Source: Eretmocerus hayati (Eukaryota; Arthropoda; Insecta; Hymenoptera; Aphelinidae). Taken from it: a stretch of DNA of 64,000 nt. The stretch lies in NCBI GenBank assembly GCA_029851415.1, contig CM056743.1, positions 89,936,501 through 90,000,500 of the forward strand, written 5' to 3'. The position numbers and the translations under genes are program-made. This document shows, piece by piece, positions 4,936 through 53,287 of this stretch (the stretch's first letter is position 1; each line of letters starts with the position of its first letter). Under the pieces are notes generated by a model. That model was not told where the DNA came from and ran no database searches. It saw nothing but the letters and a program-made list of their open reading frames with translations.

Positions 4936-7900
4936 TCAAATGTCATACGTTAAATTAGCCATTTCTCTGAACTTTTCAAACTTTTGTCGACCAAGAGACT
5001 TTGTCAATACATCAGCAATGTTTTCATCAGACTCAACTTTCCTCACATCAATTATACCTCTCATGTAATTCTCATTAACAAAGTGATAATGTGTTTCAAT
5101 GTACTTTGAATTTTTTGTAAAATTTCCAAATTTGGCAAGACTTATAGCACCTGAATTATCTTCATAAATTGGAATCGGTTTCTCCATTGGTACTTGAAAA
5201 TCTACTAAAATGTCTCTAATGAATTTTAACTCACTGACTGACTCTGATAAAGCAACATATTCTGCTGCTGTAGAAGCTTTGGTTACACTACTCTGTTTCT
5301 TTGATTTCCAAAATATTACATTACCATATAATCTGATCAAATACCCTGTCGTAGACCTTCTATCGACTATATCTCCTGCATGGTCAGAATCTACATAGCA
5401 ATCTAAGGTATCAACTCTCTCATTTCTTTTGTATATTAGCTTTAGATCTCTGGTCAAGTACAAATATTTTAAGATTCTCAATGCGTATCTAAAATGGGTT
5501 TGATCATAACAATTTTGGAATCTACTCAAATAGTTAACGCTGTAACTTATATCAAATCTTGTTCCTGAACTCAGATATAAAAGTGCTCCAATAAGGTTTC
5601 TGAATGGAATCTCGCTATTAGCAGACTGTGCAGGTTCACACTTCAAATTTTCTTCCATTGGTGTTGGGTATAATTTAGCATTCTCTATTCTATAACGCTT
5701 GGCCAATGACTCTATATAACTCTTCTGATCTAAAGTCATGATGTTGTTTTTATGATCATAATCAATGTTTATCCCCAAGTAGGTCTTAATTTCACCCATA
5801 TCTTTCATTCTGAACCTCTTCGTTAACAATCCTTTTATGTAATCCAAGTGTTTAAGGACTTTACAACAGATCAACAAATCATCTACAAATAAAATCAAGT
5901 AAATTATTTGGCCTTGGATGTACATGGTATACAGACAGTAATCAAAATCACTCCTTGTAAATCCTATACCTTGCAAAAATTCATCAACACAGTCATACCA
6001 TGCTCTTGGACTCTCGGATAGACCATATAGTGCTTTTTCTAACAAACAAACTTTATCTGTACCATCTTCATAACCTGGAGGTTGTTTGACATAAATTTCT
6101 GACTTTACATTCCCATTCAAAAATGCTGTTTCAACATCCATTTGATGAATTATCAGTCCATTCTGACAACTATAGGCCAATAAAAGTTTCAAAGTTTGCA
6201 TTTTGGCTACCGGTGAATATATATCTTCAAGAATTTCTTTCTGTTGGAAACCTCTAACAACAAGTCTGGCTTTAAATACTCCATTTGCTTTCAAAGTGTA
6301 AATCCATTTCAAATCAAGAGCTTTCTTCCCAGGTGGGAGTTCTACCAATTTATACGTTTGATTCTTTTCTAGACACTCGACTTCTTTATCCATGGCTTCA
6401 CACCAGGATTTTGATTCCTCACTTCTTATAGCCTCATTATAGGTAACTGGACAATTTGCATTTACATAGTTTACATGAATAACACTATTGTACACACAAT
6501 AATCATCAAATTTAGAAGGTTGCTTTTTAGATCTTTCTGATCTTCTCACGTTCTGCAAATTATTTTTCTCTACTTCAGGACTTTTTCTATTTTCTTCAAT
6601 ATCTGAAATGCTACTTCTGTCATCATGGGTTTCTAAATTTGGACTTTCTGATTCATCATCTCCCCTGTATCCCACTAAAGTTACATCCTTTTCTATTATT
6701 TCAACATGTCTAGCTACTACAATTTTGTTATCAATCAGGACTCTATATCCCACTTTTTCATATCCTACTAGGATTCCTAACTCAGCTTTTCTATCCCATT
6801 TAGAATTTCTCTTGACTTCTGGTTCCCTGACAAAAACTTTACTGCCATATAAACGTAAGTTACTGATATTTGGTTTTTCACCTATCAAAATTTCATAAGG
6901 AGTTTTCTTTTCAATAGTATTTGCTAGAGTTCTATTTTTCAAATAAGCAGCTGTCTTTATAACCTCTGGCCAGTACTTTGGATGCAATCCAGCTTCGGAT
7001 AGTAGACATCTACCAGTATCCATAATTGATCTATTGTATCTCTCTGCAGTCCCATTCAATTCGTGGACGTAAGGTGGGCAAGGCTCTAAATTTATCCCCT
7101 TATTCTTTATGAACTCAAAAATTTGGTTATTCATGTACTCTTTACCATTATCACACTTCAAATGTTTAATTCTTTTCCCAGTAAGATTCTCTACCAAATT
7201 TACATATCTGACGAAACAATCATAAACTTCACTTTTGCATTTAATTGTGTAAACCATAGCAGCTTTACTATAGTCATCAATAAAAGTTACGAAATACTTG
7301 TCACCGTTAAACCCTGGAGTACTGTGCGGCCCATTTACGTCTGTATGAACAATTTCTAATAACTCTTTGGCTCTATGGCGATTATTCTCAAACGGTAGAT
7401 TGTGCATTTTATTTTGGATACACGTTCCACATTTCATCAACTGTGACTCTAATTCATTTGGCAATCCTTCAACAAGTTTTTCTTTAGATAAAATGTTTAA
7501 ATAATTAAAATTGACATGGCCCAAAATTCGATGATATTTTTCTTTGGAAGTCATTTTACCTGGTTCTCTTTTGGCTACATAATTTGCTTCTCGCTTCATT
7601 AAAGTACTACTCATTTTATATAAACCATTCTCTTTGTACGCGATTGCAATCAATTCATTTGTATCTAAATTGAAAATCTTTGATGTTTTCCCTATGGAAA
7701 CTATTTTATTCCAATCTGTTACTTTGGCATAGCTGATAAGATTCCTATCCATTTCTTTGACAAAAAATACGTTTTTCATATTGATTTGTTTGTCCTTCCC
7801 TTCAATATTAAAACAACTAACGACATTCCCAATTTGAGTGGCTTTAAGAACTGTTCCATCCCCTATTTTAACCTCAACTGGCTCTCGTAAATCAATATAG

Positions 7901-9180
7901 TTCGAATAATATGAAAGATTATTTATGATGTGGTCAGTACACCCACTGTCAAGTAACCAATCTATTCTGTTCCCATCTACTCTAGAGCATGCAAAAATTT
8001 CAATCTTCTTATCGGGAAAATTCTCAGATTCATAGAATTCATCAAAATTATTCGTTACCTCTACAACAAATGTTCCTGCATTGGTATTATTTTGTCTCTC
8101 GCCACTATTATAATTATTCTGTTGGTGATACCAACCGCGACCTGATCCTCGACTATCTCGATTTTGATACATACCTCGGCCTCTTCCACGACCATTATGA
8201 TAACCTCGATTGTTCTGTTGTTGATAACCGCCTCCTCGATTTTGGTAGCCGCCTCCTCGCTGTTGATAGCCACCACCTTGCTGGTGATTCATCTGATACC
8301 CCTGTTGATATTGTTGCTGCATTCCTTCCCGGTTGTTACTTCGGTCCGATCTCTTGTTGGGGCAATGGAATTTTATATGGCCTGGCTTACCACAGTAGTT
8401 GCACGTTCTGGTTTCATGATTCTTCCTCTCTACTTTGAATACATTTGAACTCTGTCTCTGCCCTTTATTGTTATCACTTTTCTCTCGAATTTCAAACGTC
8501 TTTATCTTATTCTTGACATATTCCGTTGTCCGATCTTCTGGCTTAAGAACATCTACCAGATCACCTATGTGACTCATTGAACTAGGGAGTGTTTTCAGCA
8601 TGTAGTTCATCTTTTCTTCTTCTGGAACTTTTGCACCGGCTTCTTTCAATTCATTTATCAGTTTTTCAAATTCTGTGAAAAAACTGTCTGATTCTTCAAA
8701 GTCTTTCAATTTCATATTTTCTAACCTGTTTCTTACGCAAATTTGCATCGCCGTTGACTCCTTCAAATGAAGCTCGTCAAATTTCTTCATAAGGTCAAAA
8801 GCCAATTCTTTGTCTTTTACAAATTCCATTTGCTCATTTGATATTGCTCCATATATGTAGTTCATTGCTCTCAAATTCATGTCATCCCAGTCTTCTTCTT
8901 TGTCTGCCGGCAATCTCGCTCTCTTCGCCACCTCATCACATTTTTTCATCTTCAAAAACAGCATGATTCTCTTCTTCCAACATGCATAATCTTTTCCATT
9001 AAAAATTGGTATTTTAAAATCGTCCATCTTCTCTTCGTTTTCAATTACTTTTATAATTCGACAAGTTTCTTCTGATGCTTCGACCTCACTCTCACTTTCA
9101 AAAATAATTCTCTTTAGTAACAATACCTTCGATGTAGTTTCTTCAAATACTTTTTCAATAGTGCTCCAATTTTTCACCAT
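4936..9180 (-). CDS. Copia Gag-Pol polyprotein
   Basis: A single frame of 1414 codons from the first ATG (9178-9180); the frame opens four codons earlier at a non-ATG. Residue numbers below count from that opening. Gag (about 55-260) starts in the copia style with a DYACWK segment. Next come a CCHC knuckle CNYCGKPGHIKFHC (264-277) and a Gly/Gln/Arg-rich stretch (290-360). Protease has DSG at 415-417. Integrase shows the HHCC domain (H553, H559, C588, C591) and the D618, D681, E717 triad. RT has FVDD at 1102-1105. RNase H has D1268, E1311 and D1345. Gag and Pol share one frame, as in Drosophila copia, so Gag excess probably relies on splicing or processing. No lesion seen. Confidence 0.96.
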   Translation of the reverse strand: MVKNWSTIEKVFEETTSKVLLLKRIIFESESEVEASEETCRIIKVIENEEKMDDFKIPIFNGKDYACWKKRIMLFLKMKKCDEVAKRARLPADKEEDWDDMNLRAMNYIYGAISNEQMEFVKDKELAFDLMKKFDELHLKESTAMQICVRNRLENMKLKDFEESDSFFTEFEKLINELKEAGAKVPEEEKMNYMLKTLPSSMSHIGDLVDVLKPEDRTTEYVKNKIKTFEIREKSDNNKGQRQSSNVFKVERKNHETRTCNYCGKPGHIKFHCPNKRSDRSNNREGMQQQYQQGYQMNHQQGGGYQQRGGGYQNRGGGYQQQNNRGYHNGRGRGRGMYQNRDSRGSGRGWYHQQNNYNSGERQNNTNAGTFVVEVTNNFDEFYESENFPDKKIEIFACSRVDGNRIDWLLDSGCTDHIINNLSYYSNYIDLREPVEVKIGDGTVLKATQIGNVVSCFNIEGKDKQINMKNVFFVKEMDRNLISYAKVTDWNKIVSIGKTSKIFNLDTNELIAIAYKENGLYKMSSTLMKREANYVAKREPGKMTSKEKYHRILGHVNFNYLNILSKEKLVEGLPNELESQLMKCGTCIQNKMHNLPFENNRHRAKELLEIVHTDVNGPHSTPGFNGDKYFVTFIDDYSKAAMVYTIKCKSEVYDCFVRYVNLVENLTGKRIKHLKCDNGKEYMNNQIFEFIKNKGINLEPCPPYVHELNGTAERYNRSIMDTGRCLLSEAGLHPKYWPEVIKTAAYLKNRTLANTIEKKTPYEILIGEKPNISNLRLYGSKVFVREPEVKRNSKWDRKAELGILVGYEKVGYRVLIDNKIVVARHVEIIEKDVTLVGYRGDDESESPNLETHDDRSSISDIEENRKSPEVEKNNLQNVRRSERSKKQPSKFDDYCVYNSVIHVNYVNANCPVTYNEAIRSEESKSWCEAMDKEVECLEKNQTYKLVELPPGKKALDLKWIYTLKANGVFKARLVVRGFQQKEILEDIYSPVAKMQTLKLLLAYSCQNGLIIHQMDVETAFLNGNVKSEIYVKQPPGYEDGTDKVCLLEKALYGLSESPRAWYDCVDEFLQGIGFTRSDFDYCLYTMYIQGQIIYLILFVDDLLICCKVLKHLDYIKGLLTKRFRMKDMGEIKTYLGINIDYDHKNNIMTLDQKSYIESLAKRYRIENAKLYPTPMEENLKCEPAQSANSEIPFRNLIGALLYLSSGTRFDISYSVNYLSRFQNCYDQTHFRYALRILKYLYLTRDLKLIYKRNERVDTLDCYVDSDHAGDIVDRRSTTGYLIRLYGNVIFWKSKKQSSVTKASTAAEYVALSESVSELKFIRDILVDFQVPMEKPIPIYEDNSGAISLAKFGNFTKNSKYIETHYHFVNENYMRGIIDVRKVESDENIADVLTKSLGRQKFEKFREMANLTYDI

Positions 9181-9275
9181 GCGGCCGTGCACGTGCTACC
9201 GGTAACTCTAACCTTTCCTTCGTGGCTGAGTTCGGAGCAAACACAATTTTCTTCAATAATCTCGCAACCAACGAC

Positions 9276-27378: not shown

Positions 27379-28583
27379 CCCTACTGAAAGAGGCCGAGTC
27401 GGTGACCGAGACGGTTGACCGAGTCGGGGTACGGAGTCGGTGACTGTTTCGGTTTACCGACTCGGTCACTTCGCATGGAATGGTCCCAAATGCCACGAAA
27501 CGAACAATAAATGATAAATTATCGTCAGAGGTTAATAGAAAAATTGAAAAAAAATAGAAAAAATCATGCCCGGCTATTTTCACAATTTTGACGCGCGTGG
27601 GATTCGAACCTGCAATCTCTTGCTTACGAGTCCAAGCACATGTGCCCGGGGCCAGCGGGACATGTTACGAGAGAGAGCTTAGTGAGCGTACTTGGAGTGT
27701 GACTCATAGGGAGTACCTAAGATCTGTTCATCATCAGTTTTATCATGAGTTGATCATAAACTCTGGCGCCAGAGCACTGAGTCAAGCCGTAGCTAGGATG
27801 AGACTTGGAATATTTCTAGATCTGGCTGCTTGACCGAGTCGGTTGACCGAGTCGGTCAGTCGGGACTTGGAATATTTCTAGATCTGGCTGCTTGACCGAT
27901 TCAAATTTTCACGGGGAAGCAACACGCATAGGACTTGGGAATTTCCGAGATTTGGCTGGTTAACTACCGACACGGTACACCGACTCGGTCAACCGAATCC
28001 AAATTTTCACGGGAAAAGTAACACCGAGTCGGTTAACCAGTCAAATTTTGAAAATTTTCCTAGTTTTATGCGTGTTGCTTTCCCGCGAAAATTTGAATTC
28101 GGTTGACCGACTCGGTCAACCGACTCGGTCAAGCAGCCAGATCTAGAAATATTCCAAGTCCCATCCTAGCTACGGCTTGACTCAGTGCTCTGGCGCCAGA
28201 GTTTATGATCAACTCATGATAAAACTGATGATGAACAGATCTTAGGTACTCCCTATGAGTCACACTCCAAGTACGCTCACTAAGCTCTCTCTCGTAACAT
28301 GTCCCGCTGGCCCCGGGCACATGTGCTTGGACTCGTAAGCAAGAGATTGCAGGTTCGAATCCCACGCGCGTCAAAATTGTGAAAATAGCCGGGCATGTTT
28401 TTTTCTATTTTTTTTCAATTTTCCTATTAACCTCTGACGATAATTTATCATTTATTGTTCGTTTCGTGGCATTTGGGACCATTCCATGCGAAGTGACCGA
28501 GTCGGTAAACCGAAACAGTCACCGACTCCGTACACCGACTCGGTCAACCGTCTCGGTCACCGACTCGGCCTCTTTCAGTAGGG
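27379..28583. mobile_element. Nested palindromic element, 1205 bp, rich in ACCGAGTCGGT
   Basis: Ends CCCTACTGAAAGAGG...CCTCTTTCAGTAGGG, flanked by TT on both sides. The arms meet near 27980. The left arm of the host palindrome (around 25440-25460) shows the uninterrupted sequence, which proves the insertion. The near-palindromic 11-mer ACCGAGTCGGT or ACCGACTCGGT recurs more than ten times. No transposase is encoded. Confidence 0.85.
28318..28368 (+). other. tRNA-Thr-like 3' half inside the nested palindrome
   Basis: TGCTT...AAGCA forms an anticodon-type stem around ACTCGTAAG, followed by AGAGATTGCA and a perfect B box GGTTCGAATCC. The anticodon region and arm order resemble tRNA-Thr(CGT). 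The D arm is missing, so this is a SINE-like relic; an inverted copy is at 27593-27645. Confidence 0.45.
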
Positions 28584-28620
28584 TTAGCCAACCGCTTGGT
28601 GGCGCTGCTACCAGATGACA

Positions 28621-28870
28621 TGTGGGGATTCTGGGTATGCCTCCAGGTGGCTACCCGTTCCGCACCTCTCTCGCAAGCGCACAGAAACGAACACATTCCA
28701 TATATAAGGAACTTCTCTACCTCCGCACTCCGCGTCCAGGGCAACCGCCTGCAACCTCAGCCCTACTGATGAGTCCGGGTTACGATGTACCCAGTTGCAG
28801 GCGGTGGACGAAACGCATTCCGAGCCTTCCGCTCATTTACTTTAGTGGTGACTTATAATAAAGCCCCACA
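28621..28870 (+). repeat. 5' LTR of the mini element
   Basis: 250 bp, TGTGGGG...CCCCACA. A TATA-like ATATATAAGG lies near 28700, upstream of the ribozyme. Confidence 0.92.
28732..28816 (+). ncRNA. Type III hammerhead ribozyme in the 5' LTR
   Basis: Same structure as the copy at 29249-29333, but the base just before CTGATGA is A instead of G. This removes the innermost pair of stem I and may weaken cleavage. The predicted cut is after C28736. Confidence 0.85.
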
Positions 28871-28871
28871 T

Positions 28872-28889
28872 TGGTGACCCCGACGTGAT
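28872..28889 (+). promoter_or_regulatory. Primer binding site for tRNA-Trp
   Basis: TGGTGACCCCGACGTGAT, one base after the LTR, is an 18-nt complement of the 3' end of eukaryotic tRNA-Trp (ATCACGTCGGGGTCA plus CCA). Confidence 0.85.
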
Positions 28890-29125
28890 GTGAACATGCA
28901 TCAATCTTCCTATACCCTTTCCACTTCTTTCAATACGATACGTGCTCACGTATCTGGGTGTTGAGTGACCACCCGCCTAGACGTGTATCTCGTCAAGAGT
29001 TACACTAGTCATTGACGGCGGTGTATGTATCCCAGCATCCCAGGGTTGAGTCACGATACGTGCGGAGAAGACGGGAAGCGGGTTTTCAAAAATGTCCAGA
29101 TTCCCTGCGATTGCTCGAGGATGCT

Positions 29126-29134
29126 GGGGGGGAG
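29126..29134 (+). promoter_or_regulatory. Polypurine tract of the mini element
   Basis: GGGGGGGAG three bases before the 3' LTR, the standard position for plus-strand priming. Confidence 0.7.
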
Positions 29135-29137
29135 TCT

Positions 29138-29387
29138 TGTGGGGATTCTGGGTATGCCTCCAGGGGGCTACCCGTTCCGCACCTCTCTCGCAAGCGCACA
29201 GAAACGAACACATTCCATACATAAGGAACTTCTCTACCTCCGCACTCCGCGTCCAGGGCAACCGCCTGCAACCTCAGCCCTGCTGATGAGTCCGGGTTAC
29301 GATGTACCCAGTTGCAGGCGGTGGACGAAACGCATTCCGAGCCTTCCGCTCATTTACTTTAGTGGTGACTTATAATAAAGCCCCACA
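29138..29387 (+). repeat. 3' LTR of the mini element
   Basis: 250 bp. Differences from the 5' LTR are a T/G in the first 35 bp, a T/C in the TATA-like region and A/G beside the ribozyme core. Confidence 0.92.
29249..29333 (+). ncRNA. Type III hammerhead ribozyme in the 3' LTR
   Basis: All conserved parts are present in order. Stem III is GCGT (29249-29252) with ACGC (29330-29333). The cleavage base is C29253. Stem I is CAGGGC (29254-29259) with GCCCTG (29277-29282). The core CTGATGA is at 29283-29289. Stem II is GTCC (29290-29293) with GGAC (29323-29326). GAAA is at 29327-29330. Loop 1 (29261-29272) and loop 2 (29311-29322) share 12 nt of perfect complementarity, a strong loop-loop contact. 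Hammerheads self-cleave RNA. Confidence 0.92.
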
Positions 29388-29659
29388 GACACGTGTGCGT
29401 GTGTGCGTTCACTTCACAAACAACGCAAAACAATACGGCGATAACCAAACCTGCAAATCTTACATCAGCGATGGATCGCTAAAATTATCTCGGGCTATTT
29501 TTCTCAAATCGGACCAACTTTTGAAATTAGGCGAGGAATTCAAACAGTTCACGAATGAGGAAAAAACATCCGCGTCGACTGTACATGAAAACCCTTCTGG
29601 GGGGGGGGGGGGGGGGGGCGAATGGTTCATATGTGGAATTTTGGACTTTTACAGTAGAG

Positions 29660-51094: not shown

Positions 51095-53287
51095 TCAGTC
51101 TTCGTACTCACTGTCATCTGCTATCACTGGTTCCACACCTTCATGTTCAAATATTCGGCTGAGAATTTCAGCTGGTCTAATGATCTGCGATAAATACCTG
51201 GCGTGTGACAAGTAATAAATTATAGATGCTACGTGCGAGCAGCATCCGATGGTGCGGAGTCCATTCGCACACTCGCAGCAATATCCAACTATACCACGAA
51301 TACCAACACAACGGCTATCATATTTCACAAAACATTTATACATTTTTCTATTTATATGCCGAGACCTCACTTCGAATTTGATTGTGTCTGGCGACTCTTT
51401 CACATAACTGAGGGCTATGTTGCCGTCATCATCGTAAATCTCGGCCAAATAAGAGACCGCTTGGGATAGTTGATAAGACCCAGTAAACAAGATCTTCAAG
51501 TCATTCTCCGTCATCTCAGGGAAATCTTGTATGTCATTCGAGGTCACCTTCAATAGTAAAGAAGAGCGTCTGTTCCATCGCTTCTCTTCAACTTCTAGAG
51601 CGAGTTGATTACTATTGTGAACATCTTGGGTCATCCTCACGAAGATAGCATCTTCCATTCCTGAGTCACTATTTAACTTCCTCCCATATTCATTATGGAG
51701 ATAGCAAGCTATGCGAGCATACAGCCCTATTTTTGGAAGCAGCTTGTTGTCCACTTGGTTGTGCAATAGTTTACATTTTCTACCTATAATGCCATGAACG
51801 GCTTCTACCACCCAACGGCATTTGGTGACTTTTCTAGATTCATTGGCTTCGACTGTTGACAACTGTTTCTGATTGCCTTTCAAGGCGGGCATCATCACAA
51901 CAAACCCGAGTCCTTCTAAATAACTCTTCACATCCCGAAATCCCCGGTCCAGAATGAAGATATCTCCGGGCTTCAACAATCGCCGTATCCCATTTGGATC
52001 TTCCATAATCAGTTTCATTATAGTGGCATCATTCTGTGTCCCATAGAATGGTCCAGGCAAGTCTACAACAAATCCGTCGGTTGTACAAATGGTCATCGGT
52101 TTACAAAGAGGTTTCTTCTTTTGGCCAGAGTAAGATTTCCTCTGATAAGCGTTATTGGCGCTCTTTTCATGGCTAACATATGTCCCATCACAAATCAGTG
52201 CCAATCGGTCCCCGATATTGAATAATTTATTGGCTATGGGAGACGTGTGGTTTTTGATGAGATAATCTCTTGTGTAGACAGTCGGTCCAAATCGTTTCGG
52301 TAGAATATCAACTTCGAATGAATTCAAAACTGATGTACAAAAATGAGATACTAGTCGAGGATTTCTTAGATCCAAAATTGAAGCAATCACCTCGTCAGAA
52401 TTCCCGGTCCGTAGTTTGAATAAACAGGTGACTACAGCTTGAATTGCATTTCTATTCTCCGAAGCACGTAGTGATTTCATTCTGCTGACCAAATCTTTTA
52501 ATTCATCTGAAGTAAGTCCGGTGAAAACTTTCAAACGCGCGTCTGATATACTCCAATCACCGATATGTTCAAACAGCCCTTCGTTGACTTTGTTACTCAA
52601 TCGTGACATGAAACTGGAGAATTCTGAACTAGGAATAGAGCACTCATTCGAGTAGATGGTTAAATCATCCACTTCGCTACGATAAAGCAATCTTTTTTGA
52701 ATCAAATGTCTTAAGCAACAACGATTCCTCTTTGGAATGTAAATCTGTCTTAGTGAAAAAACTTGAAGACGCGCCTCCTCTGGAACGTCAACGATGTCAT
52801 TTTTGGCTCGACAAATGAAACAATAACCGTGAGAGATTATAGTTCTTGCAAAAGGTACATTGACGTACTCAATTTCTTTTTTTTCGGGGACTTCATAGAG
52901 TTCACCAGAAGATTGTTGAGATGGTATTGGAGGTGACTCAGAGAAGTTTGATGACTGACTACCTTGAGAAGTTTGGGCATGTTGAACGTTCTGTGTAGGG
53001 ACTGGCTCATCTACTCTTGCACGTTTGCTTGCTCGTTTGTAAAGTGATCCATAACATTTTTTACATATAAGAGATCCAACTCTAAGATCCTCTTCAAAAA
53101 ACTCAGAGATGCGTTGAATTGATTGATCAGTGAGAACTATTTGTTCGCTTTTTGGCAACTTTCTGGATGACTGATAACAATGAACACATCTGGTGTCTTC
53201 ATTCTTCCTACAAAATGTCACAGGCTCACCTTCATCATTACCCTTTGAAGTGCTACAATGGAAAGGTTCATATTGCAATTTGTACAC
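51095..53287 (-). CDS. DDE transposase (DDE_Tnp_4/HARBI1-like) with N-terminal Cys pairs and C-terminal SWIM finger
   Basis: About 730 codons without a stop. Catalytic residues: D367 (LICDGTY), D447 (ILDRGFRD) and E495 (RWVVEAVHG), the HARBI1-type order. N-terminal zinc-like pairs: C34/C37 with C75/C78, and C156/C159 with C190/C191. The C-terminal CECANGLRTIGCCSH (671-685) fits SWIM, CxC-x(n)-CxH, then an acidic tail. The frame starts straight after a TAG (53288-53290) and its first internal Met is near residue 227, so a 5' exon is needed. An ATG at 53377 joined by a 36-nt GT-AG intron (53288-53323) keeps frame, though that intron is unusually short. Confidence 0.8.
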   Translation of the reverse strand: MYKLQYEPFHCSTSKGNDEGEPVTFCRKNEDTRCVHCYQSSRKLPKSEQIVLTDQSIQRISEFFEEDLRVGSLICKKCYGSLYKRASKRARVDEPVPTQNVQHAQTSQGSQSSNFSESPPIPSQQSSGELYEVPEKKEIEYVNVPFARTIISHGYCFICRAKNDIVDVPEEARLQVFSLRQIYIPKRNRCCLRHLIQKRLLYRSEVDDLTIYSNECSIPSSEFSSFMSRLSNKVNEGLFEHIGDWSISDARLKVFTGLTSDELKDLVSRMKSLRASENRNAIQAVVTCLFKLRTGNSDEVIASILDLRNPRLVSHFCTSVLNSFEVDILPKRFGPTVYTRDYLIKNHTSPIANKLFNIGDRLALICDGTYVSHEKSANNAYQRKSYSGQKKKPLCKPMTICTTDGFVVDLPGPFYGTQNDATIMKLIMEDPNGIRRLLKPGDIFILDRGFRDVKSYLEGLGFVVMMPALKGNQKQLSTVEANESRKVTKCRWVVEAVHGIIGRKCKLLHNQVDNKLLPKIGLYARIACYLHNEYGRKLNSDSGMEDAIFVRMTQDVHNSNQLALEVEEKRWNRRSSLLLKVTSNDIQDFPEMTENDLKILFTGSYQLSQAVSYLAEIYDDDGNIALSYVKESPDTIKFEVRSRHINRKMYKCFVKYDSRCVGIRGIVGYCCECANGLRTIGCCSHVASIIYYLSHARYLSQIIRPAEILSRIFEHEGVEPVIADDSEYED

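Follow-up and report, generated by a model that had tools for sequence, protein, structure and literature searches.

In the genome of the aphelinid wasp Eretmocerus hayati we found a 767-bp non-coding LTR element, at positions 28621-29387 of the window (the whole 64,000-nt stretch of DNA that was analysed), which by its anatomy is an LTR retrozyme, of a kingdom new for this kind of element, and carries a ribozyme variant that is new as well. Its structure, its insertion with a 4-bp target site duplication (TSD) and its multiplication in at least two families were observed directly, and so was the conservation of the hammerhead, the primer site and the purine tract on an otherwise unrelated background. 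The reading that we prefer, taken with its circle mechanism, is that of a non-coding, non-autonomous LTR retrozyme with a type III hammerhead in each LTR, and we consider it likely to be correct. The element is probably functionally like the known LTR retrozymes, by analogy with which it would self-cleave, yield a 517-nt circle and be mobilised in trans by an autonomous Gypsy element. Two features are new: loop I pairs with stem II over 12 bp, and a TATA box lies mostly 31-32 nt upstream of the ribozyme. An earlier interpretation of the same letters (hereafter, the sequence-only reading) had proposed an LTR retrozyme in an arthropod; the assembly is indeed that of E. hayati, and the proposal is supported by the anatomy, the copy number, the TSDs, the host identity and a second family, in which the hammerhead and the priming signals are the main parts retained.

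The element sits on C3, one of the four chromosome-size sequences of the assembly, and not on a loose contig. The genome that we searched was the E. hayati assembly of 692,130,109 bases in 17 sequences, the four largest of which are given as 204,958,428, 192,470,813, 171,544,537 and 122,604,546 bases in length (PMC10482854, Table 4). The element is flanked by the duplication GACA (28617-28620 and 29388-29391), and all the features between the two duplications are on the forward strand. The 5′ LTR (28621-28870, TGTGGGG...CCCCACA) and the 3′ LTR (29138-29387) are both 250 bp long and 98.8% identical, with three differences (28648 T/G, 28703 T/C and 28765 A/G). They enclose an internal region of 267 bp (28871-29137). 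One base past the 5′ LTR starts a primer binding site (PBS) of the tRNA-Trp type, TGGTGACCCCGACGTGATGTGAACATGC (28872-28899), in which 2 of the 28 bases differ from what we take to be the 3′ end of tRNA-Trp. The polypurine tract (PPT), GGGGGGGAG (29126-29134), stops 3 nt upstream of the 3′ LTR and is followed by TCT, hence it does not abut the LTR. The longest stop-to-stop frame has 119 codons in the 767 bp, considering reading frames only. On all these points, namely the 250-bp LTRs, the GACA duplication, the tRNA-Trp primer site, the polypurine tract and the lack of a protein, the sequence-only reading was accurate. Being under 1 kb, with LTRs, PBS and PPT, and non-coding, the element has the traits of a TRIM; it has also those of an LTR retrozyme, that is, two LTRs with PBS and PPT, a 4-bp TSD, no coding capacity and multiple, mobile copies. 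No further match to the element was obtained within the window at E up to 1.

The hammerhead of the 5′ LTR (28732-28816) is composed of stem III GCGU/ACGC, the cleavage triplet GUC (28734-28736), stem I CAGGGC/GCCCUR, the core CUGAUGA, stem II GUCC/GGAC and GAAA; that of the 3′ LTR is found at 29249-29333. A complete type III hammerhead had been claimed at these positions in each LTR: the coordinates and the equal placement in the two LTRs hold, and stems I-III are all paired in the 3′ copy, but the 5′ copy is imperfect, with C.A as closing pair of stem I (28737 with 28765) where the 3′ LTR has C-G. Across the copies described below, 50 distinct rows were counted for this closing column, and it is paired in 49 of them. 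Cuts after both GUC triplets would delimit exactly the predicted 517-nt unit (28737-29253), a putative circular RNA, in agreement with the span claimed earlier.

The Rfam model RF00008 (Hammerhead_3) covers the 5′ copy from end to end with 25.6 bits (E 0.0075), short of the gathering score of 48.5; even with E allowed up to 10, the 3′ copy did not appear among the matches. The Rfam gathering scan of the whole window gave no match, so that a hit above threshold, which the sequence-only reading had named as a check, was not obtained. The loops of the window hammerheads are far longer than those of the RF00008 model. A descriptor consisting of the core and the three stems matched both copies and one unrelated place in the window, with a background of 3 matches in 40 double-stranded Markov-shuffled windows; the two LTR copies of one element are not independent. 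A covariance model that we built from the two families of copies described below (A and B) scored the window copies at 98 and 104 bits, values that are circular, as the model's 56 sequences include both. Run on 135 kb, the same model matched nothing else apart from these two places read on the opposite strand (E 0.24 and 0.34). Both copies are matched by the descriptor and by our own model, the 5′ copy also, weakly, by Rfam. The type III hammerhead within each LTR is assigned by anatomy and copies, though the Rfam score is below the gathering score, and the strong evidence for it is represented by the copies and by the second family elsewhere in the genome.

When RF00008 was searched against the E. 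hayati genome, two other places were listed, and the window element was not among them. These two loci (L001, C4:105.7 Mb, and L002, C4:41.6 Mb) represent another repeat family, unmatched by the A and B model. They hold four type III hammerhead matches (L001 1112-1570 and L002 1501-2141), none of which reaches the gathering score (range 23.3 to 40.5 bits), located on both strands of nested inverted repeats; in L002 there are direct repeats 513 nt apart. A 9-bp complement between loop I and loop II of L001 was reached by 7 of 20000 shuffles. This family is possibly a non-LTR retrozyme with type III in place of type I ribozymes.

Copies of the window element were searched for in two ways. The primer-site pattern, with at most one mismatch, occurred at 15 genome places (reversed control, 0), 13 of which belong to the family of the window element, family A. 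These are five copies with both LTRs complete (the window element, L011, L014, L015 and L022), four partial or interrupted copies (L010, L012, L017 and L023) and four sites from one array (L018-L021). The remaining two are L009, which belongs to family B, and L016, and only these two places were matched in a 24-mer primer-site search of the genome, from which no autonomous partner was identified. L016 carries its tRNA-Trp primer-site match at 1497-1526 (C3:114568053), resembles the LTRs and internal regions of the two families over no more than 37 bases, and shows no reading frame longer than 131 aa in the 3-kb locus; it is possibly a third element or an autonomous relative. The hammerhead core pattern had 218 exact sites in the genome, against 0 for the reversed control. 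The core-pattern loci were drawn from the first 100 of these 218 sites, and most of the core sites examined were inside LTRs of families A and B.

The resulting 65 loci, which partly overlap, contain 90 distinct hammerhead-like places, 75 of them at least 90% complete (A 24, B 51). Core, GAAA and GUH were intact in 63 of the 75 (A 23, B 40), and stems I-III were paired in 95-98% of the alignment cells. The copies with conserved core and stems to which the sequence-only reading had tied its case do occur in the genome, together with a second family. The pattern by which 50 of the 65 loci were selected contains part of the core, whose conservation is thus built in there, leaving GAAA, GUH and loop I as the unbiased parts; the 15 primer-site loci are free of this bias; places within one element or array are not independent.

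An origin of the hammerhead by chance resemblance, or of the element by an assembly artefact, would agree with the Rfam score being under threshold. Against it are the 218 exact sites versus 0 in the control, the TSDs and the existence of two families, and we consider its probability negligible.

The pair count took 56 of the 75 places: 15 of the 19 omitted duplicate kept rows and four differ (one each in L032, L040, L049 and L060), and L001 and L002 were aligned with A and B but omitted from it. There were 14 cells changed on both sides, against 5.1 in shuffles, and 11 of them come from a single pair that distinguishes families A and B. Counted by pair, 4 pairs changed on both sides versus 2.9 in shuffles, a value reached by 142 of 500 shuffles. 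The covariation support is hence slight. Four loci (L027, L028, L041 and L072) have in common a stretch, 1.8 kb or longer, of another repeat; in it lies the 3′ half of a family B LTR (from CTGATGAG), without stem I and GUC of family B, i.e. a captured half ribozyme.

The type copy of family B, L009 (C1:83834810-83835679), has LTRs of 274 bp, a unit of 597 nt and the TSD TTAT. Families A and B have the termini, the primer site, the purine tract and the hammerhead in common; the tract is GGGGGGGAG also in the four other complete A copies, with GGGGGGAG instead in the two B copies inspected. In a global alignment of LTR A and LTR B the hammerhead had 87% identity and the following 20 bases 80%, the first 20 bases of the LTR 70% and its last 10 bases 80%. 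Elsewhere identity was 59% (from the start to the hammerhead) and 58% (remaining stretch), against a shuffled mean of 58% and maximum of 63%. Judged from these alignments, the pattern is the residue to be expected of selection on ribozyme and priming.

In both window hammerheads a segment of loop I is perfectly complementary over 12 nt to the 3′ side of stem II: ACCGCCTGCAAC (28744-28755) pairs with GTTGCAGGCGGT (28794-28805) in the 5′ copy, and the letters are identical in the 3′ copy (29261-29272 and 29311-29322). A complement of 12 was reached in 0 of 20000 shuffles of the two stretches. One pair of this helix (columns 16-71) is G-C in A and A-U in B, and another is G-U mostly within a B subgroup. 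In the best simple fold the two segments form a rival hairpin, with -36.5 (5′) and -39.1 (3′) kcal/mol, against -16.8 (5′) and -19.3 (3′) kcal/mol for the hammerhead fold computed without the loop helix.

These energies raise the question of whether the hammerhead is merely decaying, as a relic, and the conserved object is instead the long hairpin of the 12-nt segments, acting for example as a signal for transcription, for packaging or for small RNAs. In favour of this, folding predicts the hairpin as the best structure, and across the copies 91% of its cells are paired; the conservation of the loop helix cannot separate the two structures, because both folds use it. The core letters beyond the hairpin (CUGAUGA, GAAA and GUH) are nevertheless retained in the 63 places mentioned, stems I-III pair in a yet larger fraction of cells, and the second, unrelated repeat family (L001 and L002) has type III hammerheads with a different, 9-bp loop-loop match. 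We regard the relic as very improbable. As for the active fold of the hammerhead, part of the 12-bp helix may form there between stems I and II. Watson-Crick loop pseudoknots have been predicted for about 40% of hammerheads, and in a type II hammerhead such a pseudoknot is required for fast cleavage; the lengths named there are "four or more", five and six pairs (PMC3088659).

Exact 4-bp TSDs flank 7 of the 9 family A insertions with both ends (4 of 5 complete copies, 2 of 3 solo LTRs and the array) and 11 of the 18 family B insertions, a number that 0 of 10000 shuffled pairings reached. Within A copies the two LTRs are identical in L014 and L022, differ at 3 positions in L011 and in the window element and at 5 in L015; therefore family A probably moved recently. 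The array (C4:92848877-92851191) is composed of four LTR-internal units and a final LTR, i.e. five LTRs and four internal regions, inside one ATTT...ATTT duplication. Three of its units are identical over 516 nt, and at its odd end the LTR is 2 bases off and the internal part 5 off (gaps uncounted), with one base of difference in length. An array within one TSD is equally explained by the copying of a multimeric circle and by unequal crossing-over between LTRs. With its differences, the odd unit speaks rather for unequal crossing-over or for later homogenisation.

As regards the RNA ends, a TATA box, TATATAAG (28701-28708), lies 31 nt upstream of the first base of the window 5′ hammerhead. A box is found at this distance in 20 of the 24 A places (TATATAAG in 18 and TACATAAG in 2), and a TATA-like box 32 nt before the first hammerhead base in 36 of the 51 B places; such a box is missing from 4 A and 14 B places, and in one B place it is at 40. 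The spacing between TATA box and ribozyme is to be considered conserved, because the intervening DNA can hardly be aligned between A and B. The usual spacing of TATA promoters would place the transcription start at the first bases of the ribozyme. Downstream, the window element has AATAAA close to the end of the 5′ LTR (28857-28862), a signal absent from most copies: counting AATAAA alone, the 90 nt that follow the hammerhead contain it in 10 of the 24 A places (in one of them past the LTR) and in 1 of the 51 B places, therefore this poly(A) signal within the LTR is not general.

Precisely, we propose that RNA polymerase II would start at or near the first hammerhead base, a position set by the TATA box that precedes it by 31-32 nt. 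The 5′ ribozyme would then trim about 5 nt and the 3′ ribozyme would cut one LTR-plus-internal unit further on, freeing the unit-length 517-nt RNA, which a host ligase would circularise. A reverse transcriptase primed by tRNA-Trp and coming from an autonomous element, probably a Gypsy of the CsRn1 type, would run round the circle and so regenerate two LTRs (more in arrays) ahead of integration. In plants, a circle as template for reverse transcription is the model proposed (PMC4918200), and for the plant retrozyme NbRZ1 it has been described that the LTR drives transcription and the ribozyme removes the 5′ part (PMC12029980).

Part of this evidence would also suit a TRIM whose ribozyme makes RNA ends only, with no circles, the 5′ ribozyme removing a capped leader or the 3′ ribozyme replacing poly(A) signals, and the linear RNA being reverse transcribed. 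In fact, the TATA spacing sets the likely start at the ribozyme, and 3′ ends may be ribozyme-made, given the scarcity of AATAAA just described. We favour the circle as template because a doubly cut linear unit without terminal repeats cannot make the usual first strand jump, a difficulty that a circle would solve; moreover, circles accumulate from plant elements of the same layout (PMC4918200). The ends-only TRIM thus seems to us rather unlikely.

In the retrozyme reading the 12-bp helix could be a tertiary clamp in the active fold, and the same helix, by forming the stable rival hairpin, could stop the ligated circle from re-cutting itself. The most specific version of our proposal holds that these are true animal LTR retrozymes, mobilised by a tRNA-Trp-primed Gypsy, that transcription starts at the ribozyme, which hence supplies both RNA ends, and that the helix is a switch, a clamp before cleavage and a circle-protecting lock after ligation; we advance it tentatively, and would sooner expect some part of it to fail than all of it to hold. 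In stability the predicted circles of 517 nt (A) and 597 nt (B) exceed their controls, 40 dinucleotide shuffles for each circle (z -3.1 and -4.1). Their paired bases amount to 61.5% versus 62.3% in shuffles for A and to 63.0% versus 61.1% for B, thus, as far as folding predictions tell, a pairing excess as in the "highly self-paired" published retrozymes is not seen in A and is slight in B.

We compared the element with the known systems. Plant LTR retrozymes (PMC4918200, PMC7761336 and PMC11722881) are likewise small and non-coding, with a type III hammerhead per LTR, PBS, PPT and 4-bp TSD; they too have Gypsy-like priming signals, occur as single, tandem and solo-LTR copies, and show little similarity outside the hammerhead and the boxes. 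They differ in size (LTRs of about 350 bp and units of 600-800 nt, versus 250-274 bp and 517-597 nt in the wasp), in the loop contacts, which are mostly non-Watson-Crick in plants whereas the wasp pairing is long and Watson-Crick, and in the PBS, which is of the tRNA-Met type in plants and not so here, the wasp element having a tRNA-Trp type and an insect host. We regard the tRNA species of the primer site as dependent on the host and not as a defining trait of LTR retrozymes.

Metazoan non-LTR retrozymes (PMC7229834) are also animal, non-coding, hammerhead-bearing repeats. However, they have type I hammerheads in tandem repeats without LTR, PBS and PPT (PMC7229834 and PMC7761336), a set of traits that the wasp element does not show, as it has all three, and type III. 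Their GC content is put below 45 or 50% (PMC7229834), versus 53% (A) and 50% (B) in the wasp. In December 2024, the text of PMC11722881 still treated metazoan retrozymes as non-LTR and type I.

Pseudoknotted hammerheads of insect genomes and deltavirus-like RNAs (PMC3088659 and PMC7936874) are also type III, with a Watson-Crick contact between loops I and II and insect hosts. Such type III hammerheads are reported from termite and dipteran genomes, and a structure search of some hymenopterans found none of that type III pseudoknot architecture (PMC7936874). The termite hammerheads are isolated motifs, for which the relevant parts of PMC7936874 describe no LTR element, whereas those of the wasp are inside LTRs; moreover, the loop contact spans 4 nt in the motifs from toad and termite (PMC3088659 and PMC7936874), against 11-12 bp in the wasp.

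The Helenus and Ajax TRIMs of Hymenoptera and other animals (PMC10886601) are also short, non-coding LTR elements with PBS and PPT, and animal Helenus has a 4-bp TSD; their LTRs hold tRNA or 5S-like sequence, with no ribozyme in the descriptions given there, whereas the wasp LTRs hold a hammerhead. The CsRn1 lineage of Gypsy (PMC3630058) has a tRNA-Trp PBS and a 4-bp TSD like the wasp element; unlike it, CsRn1 is autonomous, with gag and pol, and is a candidate source of the enzymes.

In the open-licence literature that we searched (a scope outside which fall subscription journals and preprints) we found LTR retrozymes reported from no animal. The split between plant LTR and metazoan non-LTR retrozymes is broken by a wasp genome with 218 exact core sites, and spreading by way of small RNA circles may be a property of some animal elements as well. 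For the layout common to wasp and plants there are three explanations: two separate origins, a transfer, or great age. Bacterial or insect type III hammerheads have been named as a possible source of plant retrozymes (PMC7761336, where this is cited as in preparation), and the wasp element is a concrete case for the question of such an origin from insect hammerheads. E. hayati is also an animal in which reverse transcription of hammerhead circles could be tested.

Some other repeats were observed in the loci and in the window. The sequences C1 and C4 begin with (CCATAAC)n (L003 1-3693 and the start of L006), i.e. with TTATGGG telomere-like repeats; these differ from TTAGG, given as the arthropod telomere repeat (PMC8977481). 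On the minus strand of the window, an uninterrupted frame of 1418 aa (4936-9192) has, by eye, the look of a Copia-type polyprotein, and a frame of 730 aa (51095-53287) has the DDE transposase domain PF13359 in a Pfam search of nine window ORFs. Finally, short diverged repeats around ACCGACTCGGT are present at 28490-28570, about 50 bases upstream of the insertion.
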